Part shown: positions 54,504 to 62,708 of the stretch, piece after piece | Layout of the letters: each line of letters begins with the position of its first letter | Numbering within the stretch: position 1 is the stretch's first letter | Source: Bradyrhizobium lupini | GTDB taxonomy: Bacteria > Pseudomonadota > Alphaproteobacteria > Rhizobiales > Xanthobacteraceae | DNA length: 64,000 bases | Direction: 5' to 3' | NCBI RefSeq assembly: GCF_040939785.1 | Contig: NZ_CP162553.1 | Span: 6,529,001-6,593,000 of the forward strand | Translations under genes and position numbers: made by a program | The notes under the pieces: generated by a model | Databases searched by the model: none | What the model was told of the DNA's origin: nothing | The model's input: only the letters and a program-made list of their open reading frames with translations

Positions 54504-55310
54504 TCACGCGATCCTGTTCGTGGTGGCGGCCCTCTCTGTTGCCAGCTGCTTCTGCAGGCGCTCGATGTTTTGCAGCAGCCGCTGGCTAGTCAGCACCAGG
54601 AAGTAATAGCCGAACTGCGGGTCCTGGAAGTAGATCTCGAGCAGCCGGTCGTAGGTGATCGTCAGCACCTGGCCGTCCTCGATGCACTCGACCGTTCCGG
54701 TGCGCCGGTTGTCCGGCGTGAGGAAGCCGAGTTCGCCCATGAGCGTTCCGGGCAGGATCTCGATGTTGATCTCCTTGACCAGGAACTTGCCGGTGACGGT
54801 GAGGAACATCTCGTTAGCCGGATCGCGCAGCTTGAACAGCGTATCGCCGCGACGATATTTGCGCTCGGTCATGAACGGCTTGAGCCATTCGATCGACATG
54901 TCGCCTTCGGCTGCATGGCGCGCCTTCTTGACGAGCTTGAGCATCTGCCGCAGGCGCAAGGCGTTGATCGGTAGCAGCAGGAGATAGAGCAGGAAGGTCG
55001 ACACGTTGGCGGAGAGCGCGCCGAAGACGGCGAAGAACGCGCAGCCGACCATGTTAGCGACGCGCAGCGGCACCATGGTCCGCATCAGAAGGGTAGCGAC
55101 GAAGAAGCCGGCGCCGACCGCGGCGAACATATTGGCCAACGTGATATTCTGGACGAAGATCTCCAGCATCCGATTGAAGATCGAGTCATAGGTGACGTTG
55201 TTCGGATCGAGGCCCATCTGGACCAGGATCTTCGCGATCCTGAGGTTATCCGTCGCCGCCTCGAGAATGCGGTCGAGGATCGACGAAATGTCTGCGCTGC
55301 CGGACGGCAT
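54504..55310 (-). CDS. Membrane protein with C-terminal cyclic-nucleotide-binding domain
   Basis: A 268-residue protein. The N-terminus has an amphipathic helical part (SSILDRILEAATDNLRIAKILVQMG), then two to three hydrophobic helices (MFAAVGAGFFVATLLMRTMV, ANMVGCAFFAVFGALSANVSTFLLYLLLLPINALRLRQML). The C-terminal half is a Crp-like domain: RKYRRGDTLFKLRDPANEMFLTVTGKF, the cassette MGELGFLTPDNRRTGTVEC, and SQRLLQNIERLQKQL. No HTH is present. This membrane-plus-cNMP layout resembles Popeye-type proteins. Ligand and role unknown. Confidence 0.8.
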   Translation of the reverse strand: MPSGSADISSILDRILEAATDNLRIAKILVQMGLDPNNVTYDSIFNRMLEIFVQNITLANMFAAVGAGFFVATLLMRTMVPLRVANMVGCAFFAVFGALSANVSTFLLYLLLLPINALRLRQMLKLVKKARHAAEGDMSIEWLKPFMTERKYRRGDTLFKLRDPANEMFLTVTGKFLVKEINIEILPGTLMGELGFLTPDNRRTGTVECIEDGQVLTITYDRLLEIYFQDPQFGYYFLVLTSQRLLQNIERLQKQLATERAATTNRIA

Positions 55311-55587
55311 GGTACTATCCCCGCGTAAGGCCTTCAGTCCCGGTCGGTATTCTCGACACCTATAGCCGAAATCGAACGACGACCGCTTGAATGAAGTTTT
55401 GGGCCGCCGTGCCGCAAGAGGCAAATTTTAGCCTGATCGGGCGTTTCGGCAATTGCCTGTTTGGCGGTGCATATGGCCGTGGCGCGCCCGCGATTCGGGG
55501 GCCAGTGGGTACGAGCCTCGGCGTGGTCGACCTCGGCGGCCGACCGGGCGAGGGGGACCAGGCGTGGGCGTGGGGCGATCCCCCGCC
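55311..55587. other. Intergenic region without recognised genes
   Basis: About 277 bases between two minus-strand genes. I see no protein-like frame. AAAATTTGCC-type A/T-rich parts at 55420-55435 (GGCAAATTTTAGCC) could belong to the promoter of the gene ending at 54504. No hairpin terminator for the SecD-like gene is evident, although its stop lies directly at 55588. Confidence 0.35.
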
Positions 55588-56679
55588 TTAGGGCTTGGCG
55601 GGCGGCACGACCTCCTGCTCGACCAAGCCGAGGTGCCCCGGCAGTGAACCAGCGCGCAGCAGCATGGCGACGCTGTTTGCTTCCTCCAGGGTGAAATTGC
55701 CGGAGATCTGGCCCGAGCCGCCGGTGATGGGCTCGCGGATGATGGGGGCGGAGATCACCTTGCCGTCGAGCACGATGGCGAAGGGCTTTGCGATATTCTC
55801 TTCGGTGATGTGGGCAAAGCGCCGCGTGCCGCGGCCGTTGAAGCGGAACGAGGCGATCGGCTCTTTCGTGGCGCTCGCAAACCCCGGGCCCGCATAGCTG
55901 ATGTCGTCGCCGTCGAGCACGCTGTCCTTGGCGACCAGATAAAGGCTCTTGTCCTTGAAGCCGGGCAGGACTTCCGTGCCTGCCGGTGGCGTGCCGGATT
56001 GCGCCTGCTCCGGCGGCACCGAGAGGTCGATCAGGCGGAAGCCGACCTTGACCCTGCGGGCGAAGACCGCGGTGACGCGCTCGGGCTCCATCACACCGGG
56101 CAGGAAGATGCGGATGCGGTCGGTCCCATCGGGCTGGACGCTGGCCAGCTGGACGCCGGCCTCCTTCAGACGCTGCTCGATCATGGCGATGGCATCTTCG
56201 ACGAGTTCGTGCAACCGCGCGGCGGATGCCGCATTGGTCGGCACGAGCCTGACCAGTCCGTCGCCGTCGGTCACGGCGAGTGCATGCGACGGCAATCCTT
56301 CCGCGGCCGACGCGAGCTTGCGCGCGAGTTGCTCGCGGCCCTTGACGTCGGCAATCTTCAACTCGACGCCGCCGTCGCGGATCGCAAGACCGGAGAAGGC
56401 GATCTTGCCCTCGCGCAGGTTCTTGTAGACGTCGTCGCGCAAATCCGTGACTACGCTCTCGCGCAGGCCATCGGTGTCCACCTTGTAGACGATGCGTGAC
56501 CCGCCGAGCTTCTCCATCTTGTCGCCGATGAAGGCCGAGATCTTGGCGCGCATCTTGTCGAGCTGGCCGTCCTCGGCGAGTGCCGCGCGGGGCAGGGCGA
56601 TCACCGATGTCATGATCCCCGCTGTCACGGCGAGCGCGATGAACAGCCGGGTAGCGCAATCCCGCGGGGGCGTAGTCAT
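55588..56679 (-). CDS. SecD-P1-like secreted protein without membrane domain
   Basis: A 363-residue exported protein. The signal sequence is MTTPPRDCATRLFIALAVTAG to ALAEDGQ. The rest matches the periplasmic P1 part of SecD: KVDTDGLRESVVTDLRDDV, RIRIFLPGVMEPERV, VGFRLIDLSVPP, EPIASFRFNGRGTRRFAHITEEN, then FAIVLDGKVISAPIIREPITGGSGQISGNFTLEEANSVAMLLRAGSLP. Genuine SecD has six membrane helices after this. Here the chain ends after the P1 head, so it is a paralogue with a different role. ATG at 56679 chosen with TGAGG nearby. Confidence 0.8.
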   Translation of the reverse strand: MTTPPRDCATRLFIALAVTAGIMTSVIALPRAALAEDGQLDKMRAKISAFIGDKMEKLGGSRIVYKVDTDGLRESVVTDLRDDVYKNLREGKIAFSGLAIRDGGVELKIADVKGREQLARKLASAAEGLPSHALAVTDGDGLVRLVPTNAASAARLHELVEDAIAMIEQRLKEAGVQLASVQPDGTDRIRIFLPGVMEPERVTAVFARRVKVGFRLIDLSVPPEQAQSGTPPAGTEVLPGFKDKSLYLVAKDSVLDGDDISYAGPGFASATKEPIASFRFNGRGTRRFAHITEENIAKPFAIVLDGKVISAPIIREPITGGSGQISGNFTLEEANSVAMLLRAGSLPGHLGLVEQEVVPPAKP

Positions 56680-56932
56680 GATCACCTCAGTCTTGCGCCA
56701 GGGCGCTGGCGAGGACGCCGGCATGTGAGTCCTATGCCAGTTCTTGGTCCCCGGATCGGGCGCGCAGGTTCAAAAGCCTCTCACCACAGCCCGAGGCCGT
56801 TAGGTCATGGACGAACGCCAAATCATCCATCATTCTGCCCGTGCTCGGCCGGCCCATCGGTCGAGGCCACGCCAAACCAAAATGTCAAAAGACAGGGGGC
56901 GCGGACATGCATCTGAGGGAGGACGGAATTCC

Positions 56933-58921: not shown

Positions 58922-58941
58922 TATGTGACAAGTATCACATA
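58922..58941. promoter_or_regulatory. CRP-like palindrome upstream of the first caspase-like gene
   Basis: TATGTGA-CAAGTA-TCACATA (58922-58941) is a perfect palindrome containing the classical TGTGA-N6-TCACA core of CRP/FNR-family sites. It ends 64 bases before the start of the first secreted caspase-like gene, a good activator position. No Crp gene is in the window. Confidence 0.65.
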
Positions 58942-59005
58942 GGAAGAATTGGTAATTGAGCCATGGTCCGAATAGTCTCGTGGAATTGCATCCGGGGGGA
59001 CGCAA

Positions 59006-60724
59006 GTGATTCCGTTTCGGATATTTGTTTTGTTGATTTTGGCCATTGGCCTCGCCTGCGGACCAGCCCATGCGGACCGGCGGGTGGCGCTTGTCATCGG
59101 CAATTCCGCCTACAAGAGCGCGCCCAAGCTCGGCAATCCCGTCAACGATGCCACTCTGGTCGGCGGCATGTTCAAGAAGGCGGGCTTTGATTCCGTCGAT
59201 GTCAGGCTGGATCTCAGCGCCAGCGAGATGCGGCGCATGTTGCGCGAGTTCGCCGGCAGGACCCGCGATGCCGATATGGCGGTGATCTATTACGCCGGCC
59301 ACGGCATCGAGCTGGAAGGCACCAACTATCTCATTCCGATCGACGCGACGCTGGAGACGGATGGCGACGTACTCGACGAGACCATCCCGGTGGAGCGCGC
59401 GCTGTTCGCGGTCGAGCCGGCCAAGCAGCTTCGTCTGATCATCCTCGACGCCTGCCGCGACAATCCGTTTTCCAAGAGCATGAAGCGGACGCTGGCTTCG
59501 CGCGCGATCGGACGCGGGCTTGCGAAGGTCGAGCCGACCAGCCCCAACACCATGATCGCCTTCGCGGCAAAGGCCGGTTCGACTGCGTCCGACGGCGATT
59601 CGAGGAACAGCCCGTTCGCCACCGCGCTGGTCGAGCACTTGCCCAAGCCGGGCCTAGATTTGCGCAAGGCGTTCGGATTCGTGCGCGACGACGTGCTGAG
59701 GAGCACCGGGAACAAGCAGGAGCCCTTCGTGTATGGCTCGCTGGGCGGCGATGACGTGCCGTTGGTTGCTGCCAAGCCGGCTGCAACCGGTCCGCAGGCA
59801 AATCCGCAGGATTCGATTCGCAGGGATTACGAGCTCGCGCTGCAGCTTGCCACGCGCGACGGTTGGGAAGCCTTCCTGGCGCAATATCCCGAAGGCTTCT
59901 ATGCCAATCTGGCCAAGGGCCAGATGAACAAGATCGCTGCTGAAGAAACGCGCGCGTCGGCCGAGCAAAAAGCGAACGCGGCCGAGCAGCAGAAGGCAAG
60001 GCTCATTGCCGAACGCGCCCAGAAGGCCGAGCAGGACAAGGCGGCCGCGGCTGCCAAGGCCGCCGAAGAGGCCCGGGTCGCGGCGGAGAAGCAGAAGCAG
60101 ATCGAGCAGGCAAGGGCGGACGCGGCCGAGCACCAGCGCAAACTGGCTGAGGCTGCCGCGGCAAAAGCACAAGCCGAGAAGCAGGCAGCGGAGAAGGCCA
60201 GGGCCGAGCTTGCCGCCAAGCAGGCCGCCGAGAAGGCGGAGCAGGCGGTAAAACCGGCGGCCGATCGGCAGATGCCTGAGGTCGAGCAGAAAGTTGCAGC
60301 CCTTGCGCCGGCGCCGGCATCCACATTGTCGGTGGCTGATCTGACGAAATCACTCCAGAGCGAACTGCGCCGCGTCGGCTGCCTGTCCGTCACTGCGGAC
60401 GGCGACTGGAATTCAGCTTCGCAGCGCTCGCTGGCGCTGTTCAACAAATACGCCGGTACTCAGTTCGATGCCAAGCTCGCCAGCGCCGACGCGCTCGATG
60501 CCCTGAAAGCCAAGCCGGGACGCGTCTGCCCGCTCATTTGCAATTTCGGCTCCAAGGCCGACGGCGATCAATGCGTGAAGATTACCTGCCGCGCCGGCTA
60601 TCGCGTCGGTGATGACAACGAGTGCGAAAAGATTCAGGAGAAGAAGCCGGTCGCCACGCGTGAGGAATCGCGGAGGCGGGATACGGACCGGAAGGCAAGC
60701 AGAATCTTCGCCGTCCAGGCCTGA
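59006..60724 (+). CDS. Secreted caspase-like (peptidase C14) protein, copy 1, frameshifted near the end
   Basis: A 572-residue exported protein as read. After the signal peptide (MIPFRIFVLLILAIGLACGP ending AHA|D) comes a p20 caspase domain, with catalytic His99 in VIYYAGHGIEL and Cys150 in LIILDACRDNPF. A GSLGGDDVP segment ends the domain. An Ala/Lys-rich coiled coil of about 110 residues follows, then LQSELRRVGCLSVTADGDWNSASQRSLALFNKYAG (peptidoglycan-binding-like) and a Cys-rich end. GTG start with GGGGGGA upstream. Removing one G at 60694-60695 extends the frame to 60860 and restores the tail seen in copy 2. Confidence 0.88.
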   Translation: MIPFRIFVLLILAIGLACGPAHADRRVALVIGNSAYKSAPKLGNPVNDATLVGGMFKKAGFDSVDVRLDLSASEMRRMLREFAGRTRDADMAVIYYAGHGIELEGTNYLIPIDATLETDGDVLDETIPVERALFAVEPAKQLRLIILDACRDNPFSKSMKRTLASRAIGRGLAKVEPTSPNTMIAFAAKAGSTASDGDSRNSPFATALVEHLPKPGLDLRKAFGFVRDDVLRSTGNKQEPFVYGSLGGDDVPLVAAKPAATGPQANPQDSIRRDYELALQLATRDGWEAFLAQYPEGFYANLAKGQMNKIAAEETRASAEQKANAAEQQKARLIAERAQKAEQDKAAAAAKAAEEARVAAEKQKQIEQARADAAEHQRKLAEAAAAKAQAEKQAAEKARAELAAKQAAEKAEQAVKPAADRQMPEVEQKVAALAPAPASTLSVADLTKSLQSELRRVGCLSVTADGDWNSASQRSLALFNKYAGTQFDAKLASADALDALKAKPGRVCPLICNFGSKADGDQCVKITCRAGYRVGDDNECEKIQEKKPVATREESRRRDTDRKASRIFAVQA

Positions 60725-60860
60725 GGCGAGTGGACAGATTATTTGCAGCTCGACGGGATGTCGCCCGGTGCAAAAGGGATGTCGGCTTGTCAGCGGGACG
60801 ATCCCCGGCAGGGTTAGTTCGAATACAGCCACAGGCGGCAACTTCGAGGTCTGCAATTAG
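60695..60860 (+). pseudogene. Detached C-terminal tail of caspase-like copy 1
   Basis: In the frame one base off, the sequence reads QAESSPSRPEASGQIICSSTGCRPVQKGCRLVSGTIPG...NFEVCN, then stops at 60858-60860. This matches the end of copy 2 (QSSGQMICNNAGCRPVAKGCHLG...GEVCN). It shows that copy 1 once had, or really has, the full tail, and that a single extra base disconnects it. Confidence 0.75.
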
Positions 60861-60899
60861 GGTGTCACAGGCAATCGCCCGTAAAAGGCTCGGCGTTTC

Positions 60900-62708
60900 A
60901 TGATCGTCTTGCGATCTCTTTCACTGTTGATTTTCGGTCTTTGGCTGGGGTGCGGATCGGCCCAGGCCGACAAGCGCGTTGCGCTCGTCATTGGCAATTC
61001 CGCTTACAAGAACGCACCGCGGCTTGCGAACCCGGTGAATGACGCCGGGCTCGTGGGCAGCATGTTCAGGAACGCAGGCTTCGATACGGTCGAGGTCAGG
61101 CTGGATCTCAACGCCAGCGAAATGCGGCGATCGTTGCGCGAGTTCGCGGCCAGGACGCGCGATGCCGACATGGCAGTCATCTACTATGCGGGCCATGGCA
61201 TCGAGCTGGACGGCAGCAACTATCTCGTTCCGACCGATGCGATGCTGGAAACTGACGGTGACGTCCTCGACGAGACGGTCGCGCTGGATCGCGCGCTGTA
61301 CGCGGTCGAACCGGCCAAACAACTCCGTCTCGTCATCCTCGATGCGTGCCGCGACAACCCATTCGCCAAGACGATGAAGCGCACCCTGGCCTCGCGCGCG
61401 ATTGGTGGCGGACTTGCCAAGGTCGAGCCGACCAGTCCGAACACGATGATCGCCTTTGCGGCCAAGGCGGGATCGACGGCGTCGGATGGCGACTCCCGCA
61501 ACAGCCCGTTCGCGGTCGCGCTGACCGATCATCTCCCGAAGCCCGGGCTCGACTTGCGCAAGGCATTCGGTTTTGTCCGTGACGACGTCTTGAAGAAGAC
61601 CGGCAACAAGCAGGAGCCGTATGTCTATGGCTCCCTGGGCGGCAGCGACGTGCCGCTGGTGCCGCTGAGGCCAGTCGCCGCAGCAGGTCCGCAGGCGAAC
61701 CCGCAGGACAGTGTGCGCAAGGACTACGAGCTGGCGCTTCAGGCCGGCCTGCGCGAAGCCTGGGAAGCATTCCTCCAGACCTATCCGGACGGCTTTTACG
61801 CCAACCTCGCTCGTGTGCAGTTGAAGAAGATTGCCGCCGAGGAGGATCGCACGGTGGCGACCGAGAAGGCGCGTCTGGCCGAACAGGAGAAGGCGAGGCT
61901 CGCGACCGAACGAGCCCAGAAGGCCGAGCAGGAGAAAGCCGCCGCAGCTGCCAAAGCCGCGGAAGAGGCGAGGATCGCGGCCGAGAAAGCCAAGCAGATC
62001 GAGCAGGCCAAGGCGGAGGCGGCCGAACGAGATCGCAAGGCGGCGGAAGCTGCCGCGGCCAAGTCGCTCGCGGAGAAGCGGGCGCTCGAGAAAGCGGCGA
62101 CGGAGGCCGCAACGAAGCAGGCGGCGGACAAGCAGGCGGCTGATGCCGAAAGCAGGAAGGTCGCCGCGCTGTCGCCGCCGCCAAGCTCCCCGCCGCCCGG
62201 CGATCTCGCGAAATCCGTTCAGAGCGAGCTGCGCCGCGTCGGCTGTCTTTCGGCCGCCGCTGACGGCGATTGGAACGCCGCATCGCAACGCTCGCTGACG
62301 CTGTTCAACAAATATGCCGGCACCCAACTCGACGCGAAGCTTGCAAGCGTCGACGCGCTCGATGCGCTGAAGGCGAAGCCAGGACGCGTCTGTCCGCTCG
62401 TATGCAATTTCGGCTTCAAGGCCGACGGCGATCAATGCGCGAAGATCACCTGCCGCGCCGGCTATCACGTCGGCGATGACAATGAATGCGAGAAGGTGCC
62501 GGAGAAGAAGCCGGTGGTCACGCGCGAGGATTCGAAGAGGCGCGACCAGGACCGCAAGGAGGCGGAGTCCGCGGCTCCGAAGTCGCAGTCCTCCGGGCAG
62601 ATGATCTGCAACAACGCCGGATGCAGACCGGTCGCAAAGGGCTGTCACCTCGGGCCGGTGCCCAATGCGAACGCCAGCGCCAAGATCACCGGCGAGGTCT
62701 GCAACTGA
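60900..62708 (+). CDS. Secreted caspase-like (peptidase C14) protein, copy 2
   Basis: A 602-residue intact tandem paralogue. Signal peptide MIVLRSLSLLIFGLWLGCGS ending AQA|D. Catalytic dyad His99 (VIYYAGHGIEL) and Cys150 (VILDACRDNPF) keep the same positions as copy 1. Then come the repetitive coiled coil (RAQKAEQEKAAAAAKAAEEA), a helical repeat-like domain VQSELRRVGCLSAAADGDWNAASQRSLTLF, and a cysteine-rich tail (CNFGFKADGDQCAKITCRAG, GQMICNNAGCRPVAKGC). Such periplasmic caspase-like proteins have no settled substrate in bacteria. It starts 39 bases after the copy 1 tail and is probably cotranscribed. Confidence 0.9.
   Translation: MIVLRSLSLLIFGLWLGCGSAQADKRVALVIGNSAYKNAPRLANPVNDAGLVGSMFRNAGFDTVEVRLDLNASEMRRSLREFAARTRDADMAVIYYAGHGIELDGSNYLVPTDAMLETDGDVLDETVALDRALYAVEPAKQLRLVILDACRDNPFAKTMKRTLASRAIGGGLAKVEPTSPNTMIAFAAKAGSTASDGDSRNSPFAVALTDHLPKPGLDLRKAFGFVRDDVLKKTGNKQEPYVYGSLGGSDVPLVPLRPVAAAGPQANPQDSVRKDYELALQAGLREAWEAFLQTYPDGFYANLARVQLKKIAAEEDRTVATEKARLAEQEKARLATERAQKAEQEKAAAAAKAAEEARIAAEKAKQIEQAKAEAAERDRKAAEAAAAKSLAEKRALEKAATEAATKQAADKQAADAESRKVAALSPPPSSPPPGDLAKSVQSELRRVGCLSAAADGDWNAASQRSLTLFNKYAGTQLDAKLASVDALDALKAKPGRVCPLVCNFGFKADGDQCAKITCRAGYHVGDDNECEKVPEKKPVVTREDSKRRDQDRKEAESAAPKSQSSGQMICNNAGCRPVAKGCHLGPVPNANASAKITGEVCN

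Follow-up and report, generated by a model that had tools for sequence, protein, structure and literature searches.

A conserved CRP-type palindrome before arrays of probably exported orthocaspase genes in Bradyrhizobium

Introduction

What controls a set of tandem caspase-like genes in a rhizobial genome, and in which compartment would their products work? The question is raised by a stretch of Bradyrhizobium lupini DNA of 64,000 nucleotides (the window, positions 6529001-6593000 of the 7.83-Mb single-contig genome G000), where two genes of the same direction and 76% identical, casA and casB, lie behind a CRP-type palindrome. An earlier note, made from the window alone, had described them as a pair of secreted caspase-like proteins under global control by a cyclic nucleoside monophosphate (cNMP). 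Comparison with relatives, which are Bradyrhizobium, showed that the palindrome accompanies the first gene of most arrays of this caspase subfamily. The tandem genes behind a palindrome were confirmed, with one correction that concerns the reading frame of the casA tail; the first interpretation as a whole was partly supported. The main elements of the locus are:

58922-58941, no strand: CRP-type palindrome TATGTGA-N6-TCACATA, core 58924-58939, centre 74.5 bp upstream of the casA start codon
58985-59000, plus strand: conserved leader ATTGCATCC, followed by GGGGGGA (ribosome-binding-like), from a 27-row alignment
59006-60724, plus strand: casA, predicted exported C14 orthocaspase, 572 residues as read
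60900-62708, plus strand: casB, second predicted exported C14 orthocaspase, 602 residues

Conservation of the palindrome

In the window sequence alone the palindrome is not significant. Among the casA-type regions (30 fetched, L051-L080, plus the window), however, one perfect TGTGA-N6-TCACA was located upstream of the first caspase gene in 31 of 31. The arms were invariant in the 27-row alignment, while the six-base spacer and the flanks varied; this alignment took 27 of the 31 regions, its motif missing L066, L071, L073 and L079, all of which have perfect boxes. A search anchored on the leader, with the palindrome left out of the pattern, matched 31 of 146 Bradyrhizobium genomes and all of these have the perfect palindrome, although the anchor itself was derived from alignment rows that had been chosen by the palindrome. 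These genomes are a subset of the 38 with palindrome and leader; the other seven (G008, G017, G047, G050, G080, G105 and G106) have the palindrome and ATTGCATYC yet fall outside the anchor pattern.

A wider sample was collected by protein similarity. From 157 frames of at least 300 residues, those with identical protein and upstream sequence, or with less than 250 bases upstream, were removed; 127 were kept and 124 showed the full layout, that is, a C14 start motif and an RVGC motif in a single frame. When a gene was counted as first in its array if no full-layout gene preceded it within 3.5 kb on the same strand of the stretch, a box with at most one mismatch was present before 68 of 80 first genes and before 3 of 44 downstream genes, against 0.31% per upstream region in a first-order Markov control. 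The commonest box position, found in 33 of 71 cases, was 154 bases upstream of the first caspase-domain codons. In a tree of the caspase domains, a casA clade of 39 rows was boxed throughout, a casB clade of 11 rows was unboxed and the most distant clade was boxed in 12 of 14 rows. The box label required at least 16 changes on this tree (10 of them forced by starred branches), whereas shuffled labels required 40.3 on average and none of 500 shufflings was as low.

Together, the casA-type regions, the leader search, the counts of first and downstream genes and the tree show that the palindrome did not arise by chance and is kept by selection. The distribution of boxes on the tree fits an ancestral promoter that the leading gene of an operon would have retained. 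Two other accounts of the palindrome were rejected: chance or inheritance as a relic, in view of the invariant arms, the leader search and the contrast between first and downstream genes, and ownership by the upstream acyl-CoA ligase gene, since in 8 of 30 regions (L057, L066, L067, L071, L073, L074, L075 and L077) the distance to that gene exceeds 3 kb and casA still has the box beside it, as judged by eye.

Sites in the genome and a candidate regulator

The G000 genome contains 22 perfect TGTGA-N6-TCACA sites, compared with none for a reversed control pattern, and 107 sites with at most one mismatch, compared with 24. Five of its 19 C14 genes (L005, L011, L014, L015 and L019) have such a site, at most one mismatch, within 1500 bases upstream, where simple arithmetic from 107 sites in 7.83 Mb gives an expectation of about 0.4. 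Two of these, L011 and L019, are without the His-Cys dyad and have their sites in the gap between divergent genes. Some of the perfect sites deserve separate mention. At L171:7738-9248 (G000:C1:4036737-4038247) there is a dyad-less C14 gene split into two overlapping frames, with the perfect palindrome about 257 bases upstream, between divergent genes. At L170:2685-3847 there is a dyad-less C14 protein in which Tyr and Ser replace His and Cys (by eye), with the perfect palindrome about 300 bases upstream of its gene. At L173:2045-3673 the site stands just upstream of a gene that fuses nucleotidyl cyclase and FGE-sulfatase domains. Finally, the perfect sites near position 2000 of L168, L172, L177, L179 and L181 share inner letters, e.g. 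TGTGAACTGCTTCACA and TGTGAAGTAGTTCACA; in this they are unlike the caspase boxes and are possibly the motif of a different factor.

Concerning the protein that might read the box, PF13545 gave 25 matches above its cut-off in G000, of which 23 (L102-L124) were read as Crp-type helix-turn-helix proteins. By eye, only two of these have an RE-type recognition helix, L114 (RESVNR) and L106 (RESINK). L114, also recovered as L216, combines cNMP-binding and Crp helix-turn-helix domains; among known structures the closest to it in sequence is 7pza, which is entered as a putative cAMP-binding catabolite gene activator. An orthologue at 83-100% identity was present in 58 of 60 genomes searched, with more distant relatives only in G006 and G041, and in all of the 30 best-matching orthologous loci the box TTATGTGACTTATGNCACACTT or a close variant stands upstream of this regulator gene. 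From these sequence features, the protein encoded at G000:C1:4030807-4031478 is the likely regulator of the box. The global cNMP control proposed in the earlier note has as its basis the conserved box and a candidate regulator with a box of its own, which would bind the casA box, perhaps together with a cyclic nucleotide.

The casA box is the E. coli-type consensus, TGTGA-N6-TCACA. It shares with the CRP regulon and with that of Sinorhizobium Clr (GTNNCNNNNGNNAC) a 16-bp palindrome and, in the candidate regulator, the combination of cNMP-binding and Crp helix-turn-helix domains, but it differs from the Clr core motif as published (PMC10127613).

Domain architecture and export signal

Peptidase_C14 (PF00656) matched the two window proteins with E 5.4e-36 and 2.2e-35 over residues 25-244. 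The casB model matched the caspase fold, with residues 22-256 aligned to MALT1 339-563. The identical His99/Cys150 dyad pointed out earlier is present in both proteins; H99 and C150 are invariant across 38 diverse aligned relatives and the His and Cys are kept in 124 of 124 full-layout relatives. Asp48 and Asp148 are the sole residues that line up with the acids of the MALT1 pocket; cleavage after Arg or Lys is predicted for both proteins. As had been proposed, both start like exported proteins, with a signal-peptide-like stretch directly before the C14 domain (by eye), which in casA is hydrophobic and ends in AHA-D. In a scan of these two proteins with the anti-phage defence models of PADLOC, PDLC02987 matched at E 1.6e-7 and 1e-8 (residues 28-393 and 28-413) and the remaining matches had E 0.12-0.86.

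59006-59074 (approximate), plus strand: casA signal peptide, predicted
59078-59737 (approximate), plus strand: casA C14 domain
59300-59302 and 59453-59455, plus strand: casA His99 and Cys150
60609-60860, plus strand: open reading frame in another frame with the family's final Cys segment of casA, ending ...EVCN
61194-61196 and 61347-61349, plus strand: casB His99 and Cys150 (C14 at residues 25-244, long helix at 299-405)
62196-62399, plus strand: casB peptidoglycan-binding-type three-helix domain, residues ~433-500
62391-62705, plus strand: casB Cys-rich tail, residues ~498-602

The long helix that follows C14 (casB 299-405 in the model) is TolA-like in NCBIfam, with a score under the cut-off. 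Beyond it, the peptidoglycan-binding-like domain of the earlier note was borne out by the casB model, which at residues ~433-500 has the three-helix PG_binding_1 fold and matches SltB3, SleB and other peptidoglycan-binding-type domains. With E values up to 1 allowed, neither casA nor casB matched Pfam PF01471 (PG_binding_1); 25 of 38 relatives did so at E up to 0.1, with 9.8e-5 as the best value. Peptidoglycan is the putative ligand of this modelled domain. Eight cysteines (C449, C498, C502, C513, C518, C530, C570 and C601) are invariant in the 38 relatives. The Cys-rich tail gave no confident fold match, only small EGF-like domains at E 3.9-9; the VIA-align rows cover residues 1-72 of the tail model. 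One longer relative, P0142, carries the coil, the wall-type domain and the Cys module twice in a single protein (by eye).

The tail of casA is out of frame. One TGA lies inside the casA tail alignment, and a Cys occurs within the last 8 residues in 42 of 43 casA-type first genes, the window casA being the exception; this may be either a real change or an assembly error. casB starts 39 bp past the end of the out-of-frame tail.

Family, arrays and neighbouring genes

The domain set is conserved among relatives, as is the palindrome. However, casA and casB are not the special pair that had been supposed, a view we rejected: they belong to a family whose arrays hold one to five copies in 36 fetched regions, and many of these regions show tandem arrays. 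G000 has 20 C14 matches, counted as 19 genes (two matches are pieces of one), and the C-terminal module is confined to its six full-layout genes (6 of 6 matches), namely L006, L009, L012, L014, L015 (casA) and L016 (casB). casB matches were found in all 146 Bradyrhizobium genomes searched. In the order, 107 of 199 genomes had casB matches and 48 of 199 the C-terminal module, which outside the genus was weak among the matches listed (E 4e-21 at best). The database labels among the best 120 matches in each of two listings were 'caspase family' or 'caspase-like'.

The four neighbours scanned with Pfam were of cNMP-binding, SecDF, acyl-CoA ligase and LVIVD types. Two proteins are encoded at 54504-56724, close to casA, one in which a cNMP-binding domain was found and no domain for DNA binding, the other of SecDF P1-head type; counted by eye with partial matches included, they occur near casA in 24 and 26 of 30 casA-type regions, some of which stop short of them. 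In L066, L071, L073 and L077 several kb of other DNA separate the ligase gene from casA, and the LVIVD-type gene adjoins the ligase gene rather than lying 3' of the caspases. A terminator scan gave one terminator-like site, on the minus strand, with 4.4 expected.

Comparison with known systems

With the prokaryotic orthocaspases (MEROPS C14; MaOC1 of Microcystis) the proteins share the C14 domain, the His-Cys dyad, the DxCR motif, added C-terminal domains and, as a prediction for casA and casB, the Arg/Lys preference. They differ in the signal-peptide-like start, the coil, the wall-type domain, the eight-Cys pattern and the CRP-boxed arrays. From the MALT1 paracaspase they differ in being bacterial and probably exported and, by Pfam, in having no death or Ig domain. 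Two further cysteine peptidases of clan CD, clostripain (C11) and gingipain (C25), are secreted and cut after Arg or Lys, as is predicted for casA and casB, but belong to other families. According to a review, orthocaspases lack a separate p10 domain of caspase or metacaspase type, they autoprocess, and the non-animal members prefer basic residues (PMC5756287). Dyad-less C14 members occur in Rhizobiales (PMC6426788).

The claim that such a function was not described for bacteria was too strong, since publications of 2012 already contain caspase homologues predicted to be exported or to bind the wall. A survey of that year counts 46 caspase homologues whose N-terminal helix is possibly a signal peptide and 11 that contain a peptidoglycan-binding domain, and it notes that bacterial homologues abound in rhizobia (PMC3501461); a second paper of 2012 describes a C14 protein of Bradyrhizobium that bears a signal peptide together with YARHG domains (PMC3355149). 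The 11 proteins combine C14 with a putative wall-binding domain as casA and casB do, whereas the coil, the Cys tail and CRP-type regulation are not described in the sections of the survey consulted. In the open-licence literature we found no report that links a CRP-type box to caspase genes, and such a link to this probably exported caspase subfamily, new to the literature searched, is well supported here.

Proposed mechanism and alternative explanations

We hold, with somewhat better than even confidence, that casA and casB form a CRP-controlled two-gene operon of exported Arg/Lys-type orthocaspases. A CRP-family regulator would bind the box at 58922-58941 and switch the operon; export of the proteins would be through Sec, and they would fold under oxidising conditions, in the periplasm or outside. 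There the wall-type domain and the disulfide tail would dock to peptidoglycan or an envelope partner, with the alanine/lysine coil as a spacer. The caspase domain would be made as a zymogen, would cleave both itself and its targets after Arg or Lys, and would be released from the anchor by cleavage in the basic linker. Most likely, envelope or extracellular proteins would be processed on a change in cyclic-nucleotide or nutrient status. The sequences themselves show the layout, the intact dyad, the modelled fold, the box kept with the first gene of most arrays and a candidate regulator that has its own conserved box; the further steps of the mechanism are inferred. A more ambitious version, a second-messenger-gated programme in which cAMP- or cGMP-CRP induces arrays of wall-tethered, self-releasing caspases that cut after Arg or Lys and remodel or dismantle envelope or extracellular proteins, is put forward tentatively and is rather doubtful.

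Several observations weigh against the proposed operon of exported proteases. Twelve of the 80 first genes are without a close box, and three downstream copies (L081, L084 and L289) have one. Of the twelve, L066 and L071 are really followers, counted as first because some true first genes escaped the start motif. The box counts come from related sequences and are not independent events. At the Afipia locus L304, one of eight loci read, no box is seen even with 2 mismatches allowed. In G000, only two of the six full-layout genes have a box with one mismatch or less, casA (perfect) and L014 (one mismatch); L006 and L012 have two mismatches, and L009 and casB three. The promoter scan of the locus found no sigma-70 consensus, and the second RE-type regulator, L106, may also be a candidate. 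Regarding the proteins, casA exits the family frame near residue 563 (~60690) and the conserved tail continues in another frame at 60690-60860; the third MALT1 acid, Glu500, has no evident counterpart in casA or casB (by eye); and CtpB and proMMP-9, which use the wall-type fold for other purposes, share the fold of the casB domain.

Among the alternatives, it is possible, if on the unlikely side, that another Crp/Fnr-type protein (L106, or one of FNR/FixK/NnrR type) reads the box, with control by oxygen, nitric oxide or another signal in place of a cyclic nucleotide. G000 has 23 Crp-type proteins to choose from, but the L114-type regulator is itself preceded by the same kind of box, and the perfect TGTGA arms and the RE-type helix, judged by E. 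coli CRP, suit CRP better. The B. diazoefficiens caspase gene bll3611, which may or may not belong to this family, is NnrR-dependent, although the NnrR target motifs listed there are TTG-N8-CAA-like (PMC6710368). CRP boxes are classic for nutrient control, and the proteins could be cAMP-CRP-controlled extracellular Arg/Lys endopeptidases for scavenging nutrients, comparable to secreted clostripain or gingipain of their clan, the tail being a device for stability or retention only. The signal-peptide-like start, the Cys-rich tail and the high copy number of 19 C14 genes agree with this, yet we regard it as unlikely: the wall-type domain and the long coil suggest retention over release, and none of the four scanned neighbours resembles an uptake gene.

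The caspase fold also recalls a programme of death or lysis, in which exported caspases would take the envelope apart in cells that are starving or terminal, for instance in nodules, as cAMP signalling rises. The 2012 survey ties caspase homologues with an amidase domain to autolysis and finds that metacaspase-bearing Alphaproteobacteria are largely rhizobia (PMC3501461). Against it, the four scanned neighbours showed no lysis-type domain, and the review cited argues for mostly homeostatic roles of orthocaspases (PMC5756287); we consider this programme quite improbable. Least credible by far is an absence of regulation, with the palindrome a relic kept by descent. The sample is dominated by close relatives, as such a relic would have it, but the arms stay invariant while the spacer and flanks vary, and the box persists in relatives only 54-59% identical to casA and is missing from 41 of the 44 downstream copies.

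Significance

The jobs and controls of bacterial caspase homologues are little known. A conserved CRP-type box before a whole, probably exported subfamily provides a handle on both, as it names a candidate regulator, delimits an upstream region and points to a compartment. If the second-messenger-gated programme were true, a caspase-type cascade outside the cytoplasm would stand under the direct transcriptional command of CRP. If export itself is true, some bacterial caspases would act outside the cytoplasm, at odds with a simple intracellular role in cell death.

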